Shown: piece after piece, positions 1,060-10,542 of the stretch
Layout: each line of letters starts with the position of its first letter
Position numbering within the stretch: the stretch's first letter is position 1
IMG/VR virus record: IMGVR_UViG_3300046008_000427
Coordinates: 1 to 25,733 of that record
Strand: one strand, 5' to 3'
From: a virus
Length of the DNA stretch: 25,733 nucleotides
The notes under the pieces: model-generated
What the model saw: the letters and a program-made list of their open reading frames with translations, nothing else
What the model was told of the DNA's origin: nothing
Databases searched by the model: none
Position numbers and translations under genes: made by a program

Positions 1060-1088
1060 TAGACAAAGCCTGTCAAGTGTGATATACT
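1060..1088 (+). promoter_or_regulatory. Sigma70-type promoter upstream of the first lysozyme
   Basis: TAGACA (1060-1065) and TATACT (1083-1088) are separated by 17 bases, and each matches five of six consensus bases. Transcription would start near 1095 and read the lysozyme at 1126, probably continuing into the cassette to 3558. The -10 box sits in the centre of a perfect inverted repeat, which suggests repressor control. Confidence 0.55.
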
Positions 1089-1099
1089 ACTTGACAGGC
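1068..1099. repeat. Perfect 11-bp inverted repeat around the -10 box (operator or terminator)
   Basis: The arms GCCTGTCAAGT (1068-1078) and ACTTGACAGGC (1089-1099) are exact reverse complements around a 10-base spacer containing TATACT. As DNA this looks like an operator overlapping a promoter. As RNA it would be an 11-bp hairpin with flanking AAAG and CACTTT, so weak termination of the upstream genes is the alternative. Confidence 0.7.
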
Positions 1100-1125: not shown

Positions 1126-1590
1126 ATGCCAGTTAATAGTCAGCAAATAACTAAATTAGAAGAACACGAAGGATATAAGAGTAAAGTTTATAAATGTACC
1201 GCAGGATTTGATACGATAGGAATCGGGTATAATATAAACAAAAATCCGTTAAAATTATCACCTTTAGAAATTAAATCGTTTTATGATGTGGGGGTGACTC
1301 ACGAAAAAGCGGTTTTACACGCAAAATTAGTTTGTAATCAAATTGAAGACGGTTTGCAAAAGAACTTAATATGGTTTGATAAATTAGACACAAACACCAA
1401 ATTCGTTTTAATCAATATGGGTTATCAAATGGGATTAGGAGGTGTGTTAGGATTTACAACCACATTAAGTTTAATTGAGCAAGGCAAGTATAACGAAGCC
1501 TCTTTACAGATGTTAAAATCAAAGTGGGCTAAACAAACTCCCAATAGAGCTAAAGATGTTGCTAGAATCTTACGCACAGGGAAGTTATAA
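1126..1590 (+). CDS. GH24 lysozyme (endolysin), T4-E-like, E-C-T catalytic set
   Basis: The 154-residue product hydrolyses the beta-1,4 glycosidic bond between MurNAc and GlcNAc in peptidoglycan. The catalytic region has Glu15 in EEHEGYKSK, Cys24 in VYKCTAG and Thr30 in FDTIGIGYN, i.e. E-x8-C-x5-T. Cys replaces the Asp20 of T4 lysozyme, a known variant in other phage lysozymes. The C-terminal segment SKWAKQTPNRAKDVARILRT closely resembles the end of T4 lysozyme. There is no signal peptide or SAR domain, so a holin would be needed. The start has GGAG at a good distance. Leucine codons are mostly TTA, like the polymerase and unlike the cassette that follows after 14 bases. A second lysozyme of identical length lies at 7279-7743. 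GH24 assignment is secure; the division of labour is unknown. Confidence 0.92.
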   Translation: MPVNSQQITKLEEHEGYKSKVYKCTAGFDTIGIGYNINKNPLKLSPLEIKSFYDVGVTHEKAVLHAKLVCNQIEDGLQKNLIWFDKLDTNTKFVLINMGYQMGLGGVLGFTTTLSLIEQGKYNEASLQMLKSKWAKQTPNRAKDVARILRTGKL

Positions 1591-1604
1591 ATACATGATT
1601 AACA

Positions 1605-2033
1605 ATGGCGAGTAGACATATCCATCCCCCTTTAACTGATGATGTTATAGAAAGACACCAGTTTTACGCTAAGGTAAGCTGTGAGTTGGAAGAAACCAAC
1701 ATTGATATTGATGGGTTGGGTAGAAAAACATCAGCTATATTCACAAGGTTAGACGGTGTAAATGATACCGTTAATACTTACTCGACACGAGGGAACACTA
1801 TCCTAGCTTGTATTTCAGCCCTGTGGTTGATGTTAGGTAGCGGTCTTACGATGTACGTTAATTCAATTATTGAACAAGCAAAACATACAGTAGCTACTGT
1901 GCATGAGCTTGAAACAAAAATTGCGGCAATAGAAACCCTTAACACTGCCAATGCTCCAGCCATTGAGAGCATTGAGAAGATTAAAAGGAACCTTGCGACA
2001 CTTCAAAAAGAACTTGACGAGAAACATCAATGA
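1605..2033 (+). CDS. Single-pass inner-membrane protein with flanking coiled coils
   Basis: The product has 142 residues: a hydrophilic N-terminal region (1-60) containing a helical stretch, one transmembrane helix at about 65-87 (ILACISALWLMLGSGLTMY), and a C-terminal coiled-coil arm (about 88-141). There is no cleavable signal. The topology recalls XhlA-like phage membrane proteins (helical arm plus one membrane span), but the long second arm after the membrane span is not typical. No ribosome-binding site is obvious at ATG 1605. The stop overlaps the next gene's start as ATGA at 2030-2033, so it is coupled to the PstS-like gene. It could be a holin, part of an envelope-spanning complex, or a sensor-like partner of the periplasmic protein. 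Leucine codons are spread over CTT, TTG and TTA, as in the next two genes. No family assigned. Confidence 0.75.
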   Translation: MASRHIHPPLTDDVIERHQFYAKVSCELEETNIDIDGLGRKTSAIFTRLDGVNDTVNTYSTRGNTILACISALWLMLGSGLTMYVNSIIEQAKHTVATVHELETKIAAIETLNTANAPAIESIEKIKRNLATLQKELDEKHQ

Positions 2034-2455
2034 AAAAATTTATCTTGTTTTTAATGCTTGTCATTACCTCACCGATGAAAGCAGATACTGTTCCCATCAC
2101 AAGTTCTGAATTTGCTGTCGCAACGATTTCCAGATTTGAGCTAAGACGGTTGTACTTTATGAAAGACCGTTGGGCAGAAGGAGTTGGGATGGTGACACTG
2201 TTTCAAAGACCCATGCACAGTGACGCTCACTTACGGTTCATAAGAGAAACACTTGAACTAACCCCAGCAACTTATTACAAAGAGCTTGCTCTTGCGGTAA
2301 ATGCAGGTAAAGGGGCTACAATTACAGTTGTTGGTTCTGATGAAGATATGATTGAGAAAGTGACTGCGAAAGATAATGCTATCGGGTATTTGGATGCGGA
2401 CACTTTAATCATCACACTGGACAAATCAACAAAGCTCTTGAAGGTGACAGACTGA
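2030..2455 (+). CDS. Periplasmic PstS-like (PBP superfamily) single-domain protein
   Basis: The 141-residue product begins with a signal peptide (MKKFILFLMLVITSP, cleavage probably after Ala18). The mature part resembles the small phosphate-binding-protein-like family found in marine gammaproteobacteria. It has the segment ISRFELRRLYFMKDRWAEG (the family has a similar R-x-[IL]-[FY] lead followed by a 'W-x-[DE]-G' turn). Later it has YYKELALAVNAGKG, then ITVVGSDEDMIEKV, ending with NAIGYLDAD, equivalent to the 'GAIGY' strand of PstS proteins. Full PstS proteins have about 320 residues, so this is a half-size form and whether it binds phosphate is uncertain. The start overlaps the previous stop (ATGA) and the stop overlaps the next start by one base (TGATG). 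Location should be the periplasm. Unusual for a phage outside cyanophages. Confidence 0.75.
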   Translation: MKKFILFLMLVITSPMKADTVPITSSEFAVATISRFELRRLYFMKDRWAEGVGMVTLFQRPMHSDAHLRFIRETLELTPATYYKELALAVNAGKGATITVVGSDEDMIEKVTAKDNAIGYLDADTLIITLDKSTKLLKVTD

Positions 2456-3558
2456 TGAAAAAGACATTGGCTGTTTTGCTTTTGACATTTAGCTGTCACT
2501 CTTTTGCTGCAAAGGATGATTTAAGAGCAGCCGTATCGGGGTTCGTTTCTGCAACGATGTTTAGTGATTCTGACTTCTATGAACATTCCGCCAGGGGGGC
2601 TGTCAATCTTGACGTAAGTAAAGGTTCTTACCTGTTCCATGCTCAGATGGCATCATCCACAGAGTTTCCAACAGAAACACTGATAAGTCGATTAACTTTT
2701 GAAAAGGTTTTTGGGATTTCTGAAGGGAATGAAATGTCAATCATTGTAGGTAGGTTTCCACGCCTGTATTCGTTCTACAATGCAATCACAGATAATGTGG
2801 GTACATCTGGTTTGGCAATGTTACCCTTGTCACAATACAAGAGAAGAACCGTTGCAGACAGTAGGATGATTTCAGGTGATGGCATCATGTTGAATTACAG
2901 ATTCCACCATGATGATTATTCGATTGAATTTACAGCAGACGTTAGTCAGGCTTCAAAGATAAATAATTGCATGATTCATATGGAGTTCTATAACAAACCT
3001 TGTGGATATGCGTATGGCTTCGTATCAGATAACCCAAATTATGACTTCGGCTTAACGTATGAAGACAAAACATTAAAGGTTCTGTTAGCTGTAATTGAGA
3101 TCGACATCAAAGCGTACATCACAGACAGAAAAGACCCAGTCGCACTTGCGACATACACAGTAGGGAATAGATGGCAACACAAGCATTATAAGTTTGGGTT
3201 CATCAAACAGGTTGATGATTGGTGGGTTCAAGCAGAGGGAACGTACCGAAACATTTTGATGGCTGGAGTTGGTAAAAAGTTCGTGCCATACAACCAGCAA
3301 ATTGGTGGGGACTTTGTGGTTGGGTATCACGTCAATAATGACATCTCGGCGTACGCGGGATATTCACTAAGCCGTTCTGCAATCGGAGACGGTAAATTTA
3401 ACCTAGATGACCACTATGTAGGTGCAACTTATGCAAATGGAGATGGTTTTACATATTCTTTAGAGTATCATATTGGTAGAGGTAGAGACTGGAATCGATA
3501 CCTGTCTCCAGATGACAACTGGTCATCAGCAGTTTTTTCAATCAGTAAGCAGTTTTAA
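2455..3558 (+). CDS. Outer-membrane beta-barrel protein (porin-like)
   Basis: The 367-residue product has a signal peptide (residues 1-18 or 19, ending HSFAA). It is followed by alternating amphipathic strands with many aromatic girdle residues (for example FVVGYHVNNDISAYAGYSL and YVGATYANGDGFTYSLEYHI). It ends in ...AVFSISKQF; a C-terminal Phe is the usual BAM recognition residue of outer-membrane barrels. A conserved-looking block VGRFPRLYSFYNAITDN (about 98-114) recalls host porin-like proteins that sit beside small PstS-like genes. Cys172 and Cys183 could form a disulfide in one loop. It is the last gene of the coupled trio and is followed by a terminator. Leucine codons (TTG, TTA, CTG, CTT, CTA) differ from the TTA-rich phage genes, suggesting capture from a bacterium. 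Possible roles are receptor masking, solute uptake or lysis; none is shown by sequence. Confidence 0.8.
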   Translation: MKKTLAVLLLTFSCHSFAAKDDLRAAVSGFVSATMFSDSDFYEHSARGAVNLDVSKGSYLFHAQMASSTEFPTETLISRLTFEKVFGISEGNEMSIIVGRFPRLYSFYNAITDNVGTSGLAMLPLSQYKRRTVADSRMISGDGIMLNYRFHHDDYSIEFTADVSQASKINNCMIHMEFYNKPCGYAYGFVSDNPNYDFGLTYEDKTLKVLLAVIEIDIKAYITDRKDPVALATYTVGNRWQHKHYKFGFIKQVDDWWVQAEGTYRNILMAGVGKKFVPYNQQIGGDFVVGYHVNNDISAYAGYSLSRSAIGDGKFNLDDHYVGATYANGDGFTYSLEYHIGRGRDWNRYLSPDDNWSSAVFSISKQF

Positions 3559-3581
3559 GAATTTAATTTATAGTTGTCAAC

Positions 3582-3616
3582 AAACCTAGTTATCGGTTAA
3601 GATGGCTAGGTTTTTT
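3582..3616 (+). terminator. Rho-independent terminator after the barrel gene
   Basis: AAACCTAG (3582-3589) pairs with CTAGGTTT (3606-3613). The stem extends inward by TTATC/GATGG (two G-U pairs in RNA), giving about 13 bp around the loop GGTTAA, followed by TTTTTT (3611-3616). It lies 23 bases after the barrel stop and closes the 1605-3558 cassette. A weak promoter-like pair (TTGTCA 3574, TAAGAT 3598, 18-base spacer) overlaps it and could serve the polymerase. Confidence 0.8.
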
Positions 3617-7278: not shown

Positions 7279-7743
7279 ATGATTTCAGCTACACTACTCG
7301 CACTATGCGTAAATGGTGTCACATTGCACGAAGGGTTCAGACACAATGTCTATAAAGACCGCAATGGTTGGTCGATTGGTCACGGTTATTCGCTAACACA
7401 AAATCCACTCCACCTAGATAAGAAAATTATATCTAAATTTAAACGAGAAGGTATCTCTGAGGTACGTTCTAAGAAATTGGTAGCTACCCTATGTGGTAAT
7501 GCACAACTCGCCTTAGAATCGAAATTTGAGTGGTACAATCGCATTCCTACCCAACACAAGTATGTGATGTTAGATATGACCTATAATTTAGGTATCGGTG
7601 GACTTGAGAAGTTCGATAAGACTTTATTCTACATTCGTAGACACAAAAGCGTACTCGCGTCTAAAGAGATGTTAGATTCAAAATGGTCACATCAAGTGAG
7701 GGGACGTAGCATACAGCTCGCCGAAATTGTGAAGAAAGCGTGA
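7279..7743 (+). CDS. Second GH24 lysozyme, diverged, E-D-S catalytic set
   Basis: This 154-residue protein aligns with the first lysozyme over most of its length (HEGF-x-x-x-VYK, then IG-x-GY, NP-L-L, GIGGLEKF, SKW) but is clearly diverged. Its active-site residues are Glu18 (HEGFRHNVYKD), Asp27 and Ser32 (RNGWSIGHGYS); one residue is missing between Asp and the position of the catalytic Thr, which is Ser here. Whether this changes activity or mechanism (hydrolase versus transglycosylase-like) cannot be told from sequence. The start has AAAGGAG at good spacing and sits 13 bases after the small membrane peptide, suggesting the main lysis pair. There is no signal peptide; the short hydrophobic start ISATLLALCV is too short for a SAR domain. 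It ends at the central bidirectional terminator. Confidence 0.88.
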   Translation: MISATLLALCVNGVTLHEGFRHNVYKDRNGWSIGHGYSLTQNPLHLDKKIISKFKREGISEVRSKKLVATLCGNAQLALESKFEWYNRIPTQHKYVMLDMTYNLGIGGLEKFDKTLFYIRRHKSVLASKEMLDSKWSHQVRGRSIQLAEIVKKA

Positions 7744-8616: not shown

Positions 8617-10542
8617 TTATGCGAAGGCAAGGTAGATGTAGCTAACGCCGTTAGTGTTGATATTACAGGTTGTTTCGGTATTCACAATTATCCCAGTTGA
8701 GGCTGGATCAACGGCATCTGCTGATGTTACTTCTGCTGCTGTTGAGTTAAGTTGTAAGCCGTAATCTGTACCACTTACAATCCCGCGTGTTGAATCATAA
8801 ACCCACCACGAGCCAGTAGTTGACGTAGATTTGCACATAAAAAACCGCGCACCCGTTGTAAATCCACAATCAATAGTCTGACTTGAACCGTTGCCTGTGT
8901 AACTCCCTACTTTGCTGATGCCAGATTTTGTAGCAAAAAGATATGCAACGTATGTGGAACCGTTATAATTTACTGTGGAATCAGAACCAACAGTAAAAAC
9001 AGAACTTGATGGACTTGTGTTATTCCACATAGTTGACGAAGTAATAGGCGCGTAGTTCAAATGTAGCTGCAACACCTTAGTATTGCCTAGAGCTTCGCTG
9101 TACACGCGCCATTCAAAAGCAGTTGAACGCATCTTCACAATCATCAACTCAGGCGCAACACCTAAACCATGTGCAACTGTCGTAGCTGAACCTGTACCTG
9201 TATAACAAACGATGTCAAATACTCCTACTGCTCTTTTGAAGAAGTAGTTGATGTAGGTAGTAGTGTTATGATTCCAGTACCCATCAGATGCGTCAGGGTT
9301 ATACGAAACTCCATCCATATTAAATGCTGTAACCGCGCTGCCCGTTGTAACTTCAGCTATGTTTAAGTTAGCCGCCAGAGTAGCTGTCACACCTCTTAAT
9401 TTGTCCGTAAAGGCAGTGTTTGGACTCCATGTAGCCGCCCTATCGCGCGACATTAACAAATCAGGCGCAAACCCAACCCCAGTAACCGTAGCTGCTGCAC
9501 CTGTACCAGTTCTAGCAATCGCATTATAAACCTGTGTACCCGTTGTAGGTGGTTTGTTTGAACGTCTGATTGCGAGGTAGATGTAGGTGGAGTTAGCATA
9601 TAACCCACCTGAAGATTGCTTAAACCCTGTAGATGTTGGGTCAAGTGGGTTTGAATATGAAGATGTATCTTCAGCCGCCGAACTGTTTGCCTTTAGTAGA
9701 GGGTCTGAATTACTAACCGTAAATCCTCGCATAGAATCTAGTATCAGCCAATCACCGTCAAGGCTAGAATTAGAGCGTTTCATCATCAAATACTGTGGTT
9801 CCCACCCCAAATTCACAGTCGCATTACCGCTGCCATCAGTCGTGAATGAACCGCACTGAATGATTCCATCCGTACTTGTATCATGCGCGAAAAGGTAGGC
9901 AACGTAGGTTTGACCTGAGCCATTGACTGCTGAGTTTGAACCAACAGTGAAATTGGACATAGTGGGATTGGTATTATTCCATGCAGCTGAGTCTGAAACC
10001 TCCTCTTGTGATAAGTTCAACGTAAGTCTTTTAGTTGCCCCTCTTGATATGTGATATACATCCCAGTTGTCAACCGCACTCGTGCATTTAACAATCACCA
10101 TCCCAGGCGCAACACCTAGATTATGCGCTATCTGTCTACCAGCTACACCATTCCCCGTATAAGTCACCACATCGAAGAATTTTGGGCTTTTCTTAAATGT
10201 CCAGCTGACGTAGTTAGAATTTAATGAGTTAATGTTAAATCCAGCTCCACTAGAACCAAAACTGTACCCATCGGAGTTAAAACTGTTGATTGTATTAGAT
10301 GCTGTTGCCTGTGAATAAGCAGCGTCAGAGGTTAAAACTTTATCTCCGCCTCTAATGGTATCTACTAATACATGGTCTTGCGACAATGTCCTACTCTTAA
10401 TCCAAACCAACCCACCCTTACCAGCTAAGTCAATCCCATTAGTGATAGTCTGTGTGGAGCCGTTACCTGTGTAGGTATGTGAGGCGAAAACCGAATCCGA
10501 ATAAAGAGGTTCATCCGAACCGCATACTTTTAACATACTCAT
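8617..10542 (-). CDS. Six-repeat beta-rich tail surface/fibre protein
   Basis: The 641-residue product is built of about six tandem repeats of roughly 95-105 residues. Most begin with a pattern like Y-T-G-N-G-x3-T-x5-G-x-x-P-x-x-M-x-x-K and end with a Y-[IV]-x-Y-x-F strand; examples of the opening are VVTYTGNG, CGSFTTDGSGN, IARTGTG, IVCYTGTG and VGSYTGNG. Repeats two and five are closest and share WNNT, F-TVGS-S and YVAYLFA. It resembles the DUF7483-type repeat domain seen in fibre or appendage proteins of marine phages. It probably lies on the outside of the tail tip and binds receptor or glycan. The start overlaps the end of the homing endonuclease gene as ATGA (10539-10542), with AAGGAT upstream. 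It ends in the strand SYIYLAFA. Confidence 0.75.
   Translation of the reverse strand: MSMLKVCGSDEPLYSDSVFASHTYTGNGSTQTITNGIDLAGKGGLVWIKSRTLSQDHVLVDTIRGGDKVLTSDAAYSQATASNTINSFNSDGYSFGSSGAGFNINSLNSNYVSWTFKKSPKFFDVVTYTGNGVAGRQIAHNLGVAPGMVIVKCTSAVDNWDVYHISRGATKRLTLNLSQEEVSDSAAWNNTNPTMSNFTVGSNSAVNGSGQTYVAYLFAHDTSTDGIIQCGSFTTDGSGNATVNLGWEPQYLMMKRSNSSLDGDWLILDSMRGFTVSNSDPLLKANSSAAEDTSSYSNPLDPTSTGFKQSSGGLYANSTYIYLAIRRSNKPPTTGTQVYNAIARTGTGAAATVTGVGFAPDLLMSRDRAATWSPNTAFTDKLRGVTATLAANLNIAEVTTGSAVTAFNMDGVSYNPDASDGYWNHNTTTYINYFFKRAVGVFDIVCYTGTGSATTVAHGLGVAPELMIVKMRSTAFEWRVYSEALGNTKVLQLHLNYAPITSSTMWNNTSPSSSVFTVGSDSTVNYNGSTYVAYLFATKSGISKVGSYTGNGSSQTIDCGFTTGARFFMCKSTSTTGSWWVYDSTRGIVSGTDYGLQLNSTAAEVTSADAVDPASTGIIVNTETTCNINTNGVSYIYLAFA

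Follow-up and report, generated by a model that had tools for sequence, protein, structure and literature searches.

What are three overlapping genes, with products predicted for the inner membrane, the periplasm and the outer membrane, doing behind the endolysin gene of a tailed phage? The window, by which we mean the whole stretch of DNA analysed here, is one whole IMG/VR contig of 25,733 bases from such a phage, and its polymerase is closest (43–46%) to those of Providencia, Pseudomonas, Alteromonas and Escherichia phages of about 55–61 kb. A preliminary description of this DNA took the trio for a captured bacterial cassette, or moron. We tentatively propose instead that the trio is a phage-borne relative of an envelope sensory module of Proteobacteria, through which an outside signal would control lysis from the slot beside the endolysin. 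We favour this reading while holding it to be somewhat short of probable.

A three-gene set predicted to span the envelope

The unit extends from a promoter-hairpin before the endolysin gene to a terminator before the polymerase gene (Table 1). The three ORFs are present as first described, and so are their overlaps, ATGA (2030–2033) and TGATG (2453–2457), both of which are kept in the relative L002. The good terminator reported for the set is confirmed as a 13-bp hairpin with a T run at 3582–3613 (z = −5.1; no shuffle folds as well).

Table 1 Features of the endolysin–trio unit and of the segment in which it is exchanged.
Feature	Position in window	Strand	Basis or remark
Composite promoter and hairpin before the endolysin	1060–1099	+	TAGACA-17-TATACT, −10 hexamer in the loop of a 12-bp hairpin
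Endolysin (phage lysozyme), gene 1 of the unit	1126–1590	+	Pfam Phage_lysozyme, E = 1.1e-7
Segment exchanged, window versus contig L005	1381–4028		Flanks identical; L005 has an XhlA-type gene there
Protein 1, predicted single-pass inner-membrane protein	1605–2033	+	Hydropathy and charge
Protein 2, predicted exported, single PstS-type lobe	2030–2455	+	HMM and profile matches
Protein 3, predicted exported porin-like outer-membrane barrel	2455–3558	+	Signal-like start, F end, porin-family matches
Terminator of the unit	3574–3613	+	Overlapped by promoter-like TTGTCA-18-TAAGAT ahead of the polymerase gene

Protein 1 has an N-terminal part of about 62 aa, one hydrophobic segment at about residues 65–83, and a helical, coil-like C-terminal tail of about 56 aa, which is predicted to be periplasmic from hydropathy and charge only. 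Proteins 2 (141 aa) and 3 (367 aa) carry signal-peptide-like N-termini, as read by eye, and protein 3 ends in F, as outer-membrane barrels do. These features support the view that the genes form a co-expressed set spanning the envelope, with the localisation of all three products predicted from their sequences. Searches of the trio against Pfam, NCBIfam and PADLOC returned nothing meaningful, protein 1 matched no known holin or antiholin in Pfam or PHROG, and AlphaFold models of proteins 2 and 3 (pLDDT 36 and 29, built from two sequences each) were too poor for fold comparison.

One way to read such a set is as a spanin-like aid, in which protein 1 and the barrel, with the PstS-like protein as the bridge, would join the two membranes and help disrupt the outer one. 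The position after the endolysin, the span of the set and a very weak resemblance of protein 1 to Rz (phrog_739, E = 0.12) are consistent with this, but known outer-membrane spanin subunits do not look like a 367-aa barrel, protein 3 shows no lipobox, and the periplasmic tail of protein 1 is short. Compared with the Rz/Rz1 spanins, the trio shows neither convincingly Rz-like sequence nor an outer-membrane lipoprotein partner, and we regard a spanin-like role as highly improbable, the least credible of the readings weighed here.

A second phage-lysozyme gene with a hydrophobic start lies about 6 kb downstream, at 7279–7743, and is kept in the related contigs L002, L006 and L007. Comparison of L006 with L007 also shows, by eye, a ribonucleotide-reductase-like ORF in L006 (511–3279) that seems to be split by an intein-like insert relative to its counterpart in L007 (2184–4019).

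A second copy of the trio and its codon use

The trio is found in only one further phage contig, IMGVR_UViG_3300046005_001038 (79.8 kb; L002/G001), where the order and overlaps are those of the window and proteins 1, 2 and 3 are 66, 79 and 88% identical, respectively. Two scans of genome contigs yielded no relative; tblastn searches at E 0.01 were likewise empty, both for each trio protein against phages and for proteins 2 and 3 against plasmids. A bacterial homologue of protein 1 was not found in the searches made.

Between the two copies, synonymous change is saturated, with dN values of 0.24, 0.15 and 0.07 for proteins 1, 2 and 3; the endolysin, by comparison, has 0.32 and the polymerase 0.42. 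Because third positions are saturated while the barrel keeps its high identity, these are real genes, and the trio is under strong purifying selection. The low dN of the barrel marks it as better conserved than the neighbouring genes, above all at residues 102–141, where 1 of 40 amino acids differs despite 22 third-position differences.

The case for capture had been made from leucine codons, and these do differ, TTA accounting for 13 of 54 leucine codons in the trio versus 313 of 610 in the other genes of the window (Fisher p = 1e-4). The difference is not unique to the trio, as leucine codon use is similar in the second lysozyme gene and in the gene at 8617–10542. The trio of L002 has phage-like codons (TTA 29 of 52, versus 80 of 153 in its neighbours; p = 0.75), and on these counts we reject recent capture by codon use. 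The phage-like codons of L002, together with the synonymous saturation between the copies, leave a recently captured bacterial cassette unsupported and indicate that the trio has long been resident in phages. The window trio probably came by recombination from another phage of differing codon habits, and direct capture from a bacterium is not needed.

Proteins 2 and 3 resemble a bacterial gene pair

Bacterial relatives were reached only via plasmid and chromid records, after the search threshold had been loosened. The first match, in Halomonas sp. PA16-9 (E = 0.04), belongs to a PstS-like gene that is followed by a porin-like gene and then by a dCache-PAS-GGDEF-EAL gene. A further 15 records came up when the Halomonas protein served as query, and we examined 12 of these, from Pseudoalteromonas, Alteromonas, Caballeronia, Pseudomonas, Massilia, Ideonella and a member of the Comamonadaceae. 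A porin-like gene adjoins the PstS-like gene, on either side, in 12 of the 13 proteobacterial loci (L019 is the exception), and an MCP or GGDEF/EAL gene lies at most two genes away in 10 of them (not in L013, L015 and L016); the loci were sampled for convenience from plasmid records and include close relatives, so that these counts are not frequencies. The members of the bacterial pair are annotated 'phosphate ABC transporter substrate-binding protein' and 'porin', and a functional study of a PstS-lobe and porin pair was not found in the open-licence papers searched. On two large Alteromonas plasmids (L015 and L016), the pair stands beside a type IV CRISPR (csf) locus, with no MCP or GGDEF neighbour.

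An HMM of the 13 PstS-like proteins matches protein 2 at E = 1.2e-11 and its L002 homologue at E = 2.6e-10, whereas the next-best of 208 phage ORFs reaches only E = 0.97 and shuffled sequences score far lower. A profile of the bacterial family together with protein 2 matches 4q8r, 4gd5, 4exl and 1twy over the second lobe (E = 1.8e-9 to 3e-8), and the bacterial members alone match solved phosphate-binding proteins at E = 2e-7. The claim that protein 2 is a single-domain PstS-like protein is borne out: it aligns to the second lobe of PstS, the alignment covers this one lobe only, and the other is absent. These matches argue strongly for an ancestry of protein 2 in the bacterial PstS-like family.

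For the barrel the matches are fainter: one direct comparison with the Halomonas porin gives E = 2e-4, and a porin HMM gives E = 0.003, with protein 3 the best of 208 phage ORFs. In the shuffle control, 0 of 1932 sequences score as high as the window barrel and 4 of 1973 exceed the L002 barrel. Alignment of the barrel to the bacterial porins with hhalign gives E = 0.0018 at low probability, and a structure search with the barrel family gave no match. A Sulfitobacter match to the barrel (E = 0.8) was judged to be due to chance. Kinship of the barrel with the bacterial porins is likely because its gene is adjacent to a PstS-like gene, and we assign protein 3 an ancestry in the bacterial porin family with moderate confidence. 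The relation of both genes to bacterial genes, as first suggested, is thus supported by a pair that is adjacent in bacteria too.

The bacterial pair therefore consists of two adjacent genes of the same kinds as those for proteins 2 and 3, but it is only about 20% identical to the phage pair. It also differs in its company: the inner-membrane partner in the phage is short and coil-tailed rather than an MCP or GGDEF/EAL protein, neither of these domains being found in protein 1 or recognised in the surrounding window genes with Pfam and PHROG, and the phage set forms part of a lysis unit. The trio resembles a captured outer membrane–periplasm sensory pair to which a phage-specific inner-membrane protein has been joined.

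The kinship of proteins 2 and 3 with PstS and porins raises the uptake of phosphate or another solute, which the barrel would admit and the PstS-like protein would bind for the infected cell. The related contig L005 also has a PhoH-like gene, as read by eye. However, protein 2 has just one of the two lobes between which phosphate is enclosed, and no permease or ATPase gene adjoins the PstS-like gene. The S-G-T stretch of phosphate ligands (R135-A-D-G-S-G-T in E. coli PstS) is absent from both the bacterial family and protein 2, where by our own reading R-P-M-H-S-D-A stands nearby, the alignment being loose at this point. We therefore consider uptake very unlikely.

The chemoreceptor and c-di-GMP genes beside the bacterial pair suggest another possibility, namely that the phage PstS-like protein and barrel compete with a host pair and so quiet its chemoreceptor or c-di-GMP protein during infection. 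Protein 2 does keep the family pattern. Against such interference with host signalling, the phage and bacterial pairs share only about 20% identity, and protein 1 would have no clear part; we judge it quite improbable.

The pair in an unrelated jumbo phage

Phage NCTB (LT598654), a jumbo phage of 257.9 kb, carries a PstS-like and barrel pair in the same order as the trio and with an ATGA overlap, but it is unrelated to the window phage and its pair has no neighbouring inner-membrane gene. The NCTB barrel clearly belongs to the bacterial porin family (hhalign E = 5.5e-27; Porin_4 at E = 2e-5 just misses the cut-off) and is much nearer to the bacterial barrels than the trio barrel is. Phages have therefore probably acquired the pair on at least two occasions. 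Two scans of viral contigs, one using the bacterial family and the other the NCTB barrel, yielded no relatives.

An Acb1-like anti-CBASS gene (E = 4e-11) lies directly before the NCTB pair (L025 4520–6619). Because the pair stands beside this gene and not beside lysis genes, lysis control is no general role of the pair.

The same phage-conflict neighbourhood counts towards the main alternative to lysis control, superinfection exclusion. Here the barrel would alter the surface of the infected cell or compete with the phage receptor, with help from proteins 1 and 2, and competing phages would adsorb or enter less. Phage porins can alter receptor use, as with Lc of PA-2. Phage-borne porins near lysis genes are also exemplified by NmpC of prophage DLP12, whose gene adjoins essD-rrrD-rzpD, and phage P7 provides another in its own nmpC gene (PMC6906374). 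NmpC of DLP12, however, is a lone porin, encoded on the opposite strand and, in the annotated stretch, without a PstS-like or inner-membrane partner. Exclusion moreover leaves the PstS lobe, the inner-membrane protein and the replacement of the gene after the endolysin unexplained, and we hold it to be unlikely, if still a serious contender.

The trio and an XhlA-type gene alternate in one slot

Contig L005 equals the window over positions 1–1380 and from 4029 almost to the end (two mismatches, in the last bases), and in place of the trio it has a single gene of 147 aa, whose product contains a coiled coil and, at the C-terminal end, a weak membrane segment. We call this gene XhlA-type as a name for its layout only, the slot gene of the relatives matching Pfam XhlA at best at E = 0.005, which misses the cut-off. 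An XhlA-type gene also lies directly after the endolysin gene, or next but one, in L006/L028, L007, L026, L030/L031 and L033.

A profile of the XhlA-type gene finds exactly one copy in each of six distinct trio-less records and none in the window or in the 79.8-kb trio contig; the profile was built from these six sequences, which makes their own matches inevitable, and what carries information is its failure to match either trio record. A profile of protein 1, in turn, matches only these two among the phage records compared. The window is a fragment, so that absence there is weak evidence, and the 79.8-kb contig may likewise be incomplete. With this caution, since the XhlA-type gene is missing from both trio contigs, it and the trio are alternative occupants of a single lysis-side slot. 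The L005 comparison and the profiles favour replacement of a resident gene of the lysis unit, and a moron added to the genome, which is not the best picture of the trio, is rejected. The preliminary description stands in its genes, overlaps, set predicted to span the envelope and bacterial relation, but a recent bacterial capture or an added moron is not supported.

Both hairpins of the unit (1060–1099 and 3574–3613) are intergenic and hold a −10 hexamer in the loop, with a −35-like hexamer about 17 bases before it. Hairpins of the same type lie upstream of the endolysin gene in L002, L006, L007, L026, L030 and L033, where the −10 hexamer and loop are the same and the arms are wholly different yet complementary. 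They resemble PeSLs, composite promoter–terminator motifs of T4-like phages that are reported to mediate gene shuffling, in work cited in PMC4503421. By analogy, the hairpins may help the exchange of modules such as the content of the trio slot.

A putative route from the cell surface to lysis

We favour lysis control because the set replaces a membrane gene by the endolysin and because proteins 1 and 2 are predicted to share the order of parts of T4 T and RI. A signal relay is suggested by the bacterial layout of an outer-membrane barrel, a periplasmic lobe and an inner-membrane receptor, which we infer from gene neighbourhood; in the phage version, protein 1 would replace the bacterial receptor. 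To the gene set, its overlaps and selection, the ancestry of proteins 2 and 3 and the replacement of the XhlA-type gene, all of which are computed, the proposal adds a localisation, contacts and a lysis role for the trio, which we infer. An event outside the cell or in its envelope would elicit a response from the outer-membrane barrel and the periplasmic PstS-like protein, possible inputs being a solute, surface stress or the adsorption of a second phage. The PstS-like protein would then act on the periplasmic tail of protein 1, which would take the place that the XhlA-type membrane protein has in the relatives and decide whether and when the endolysin passes. That this amounts to a phage lysis controller with its own outer-membrane receptor, in which a barrel signal passes through the PstS lobe to protein 1 and so gates the endolysin, seems to us possible but leaning towards unlikely.

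A periplasmic antiholin allows phages to adjust lysis in response to superinfection. The T4 holin T consists of a small N-terminal part in the cytoplasm, a single membrane helix and a periplasmic domain; the T4 antiholin RI is exported and, on superinfection, inhibits lysis (PMC11413866). The trio, by its predicted topology, would likewise pair a single-pass inner-membrane protein having a periplasmic C-terminal part with an exported partner, but Pfam and PHROG revealed no sequence similarity to T or RI, the T4 system lacks an outer-membrane component, and RI is no PstS lobe. A tripartite signalling layout of outer membrane, periplasm and inner membrane is also seen in YfiBNR of Pseudomonas aeruginosa, in which, by contrast, YfiB is a lipoprotein and YfiN a diguanylate cyclase; we claim no homology with it.

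Counting against lysis control, the part of the XhlA-type gene in lysis is itself putative, and another, unrecognised holin may exist. A tiny protein with a single predicted membrane segment, ending in DRGGH or DRGGY, is encoded at 160–271 of the window and 5105–5221 of L006, where its gene overlaps the next, and it could be a candidate for such a holin.

In keeping with the preliminary description, which knew of none, no phage system with this trio was found in the open-licence papers searched. None with its own outer-membrane input was found in them, and we know of no such system. Regardless of any role in lysis, two unrelated phages carry a pair that lies by chemoreceptor or c-di-GMP genes in Proteobacteria. 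If the trio works as proposed, it would exemplify a virus that reads conditions outside its host cell ahead of lysis, and the phage would time lysis by what is outside the cell.
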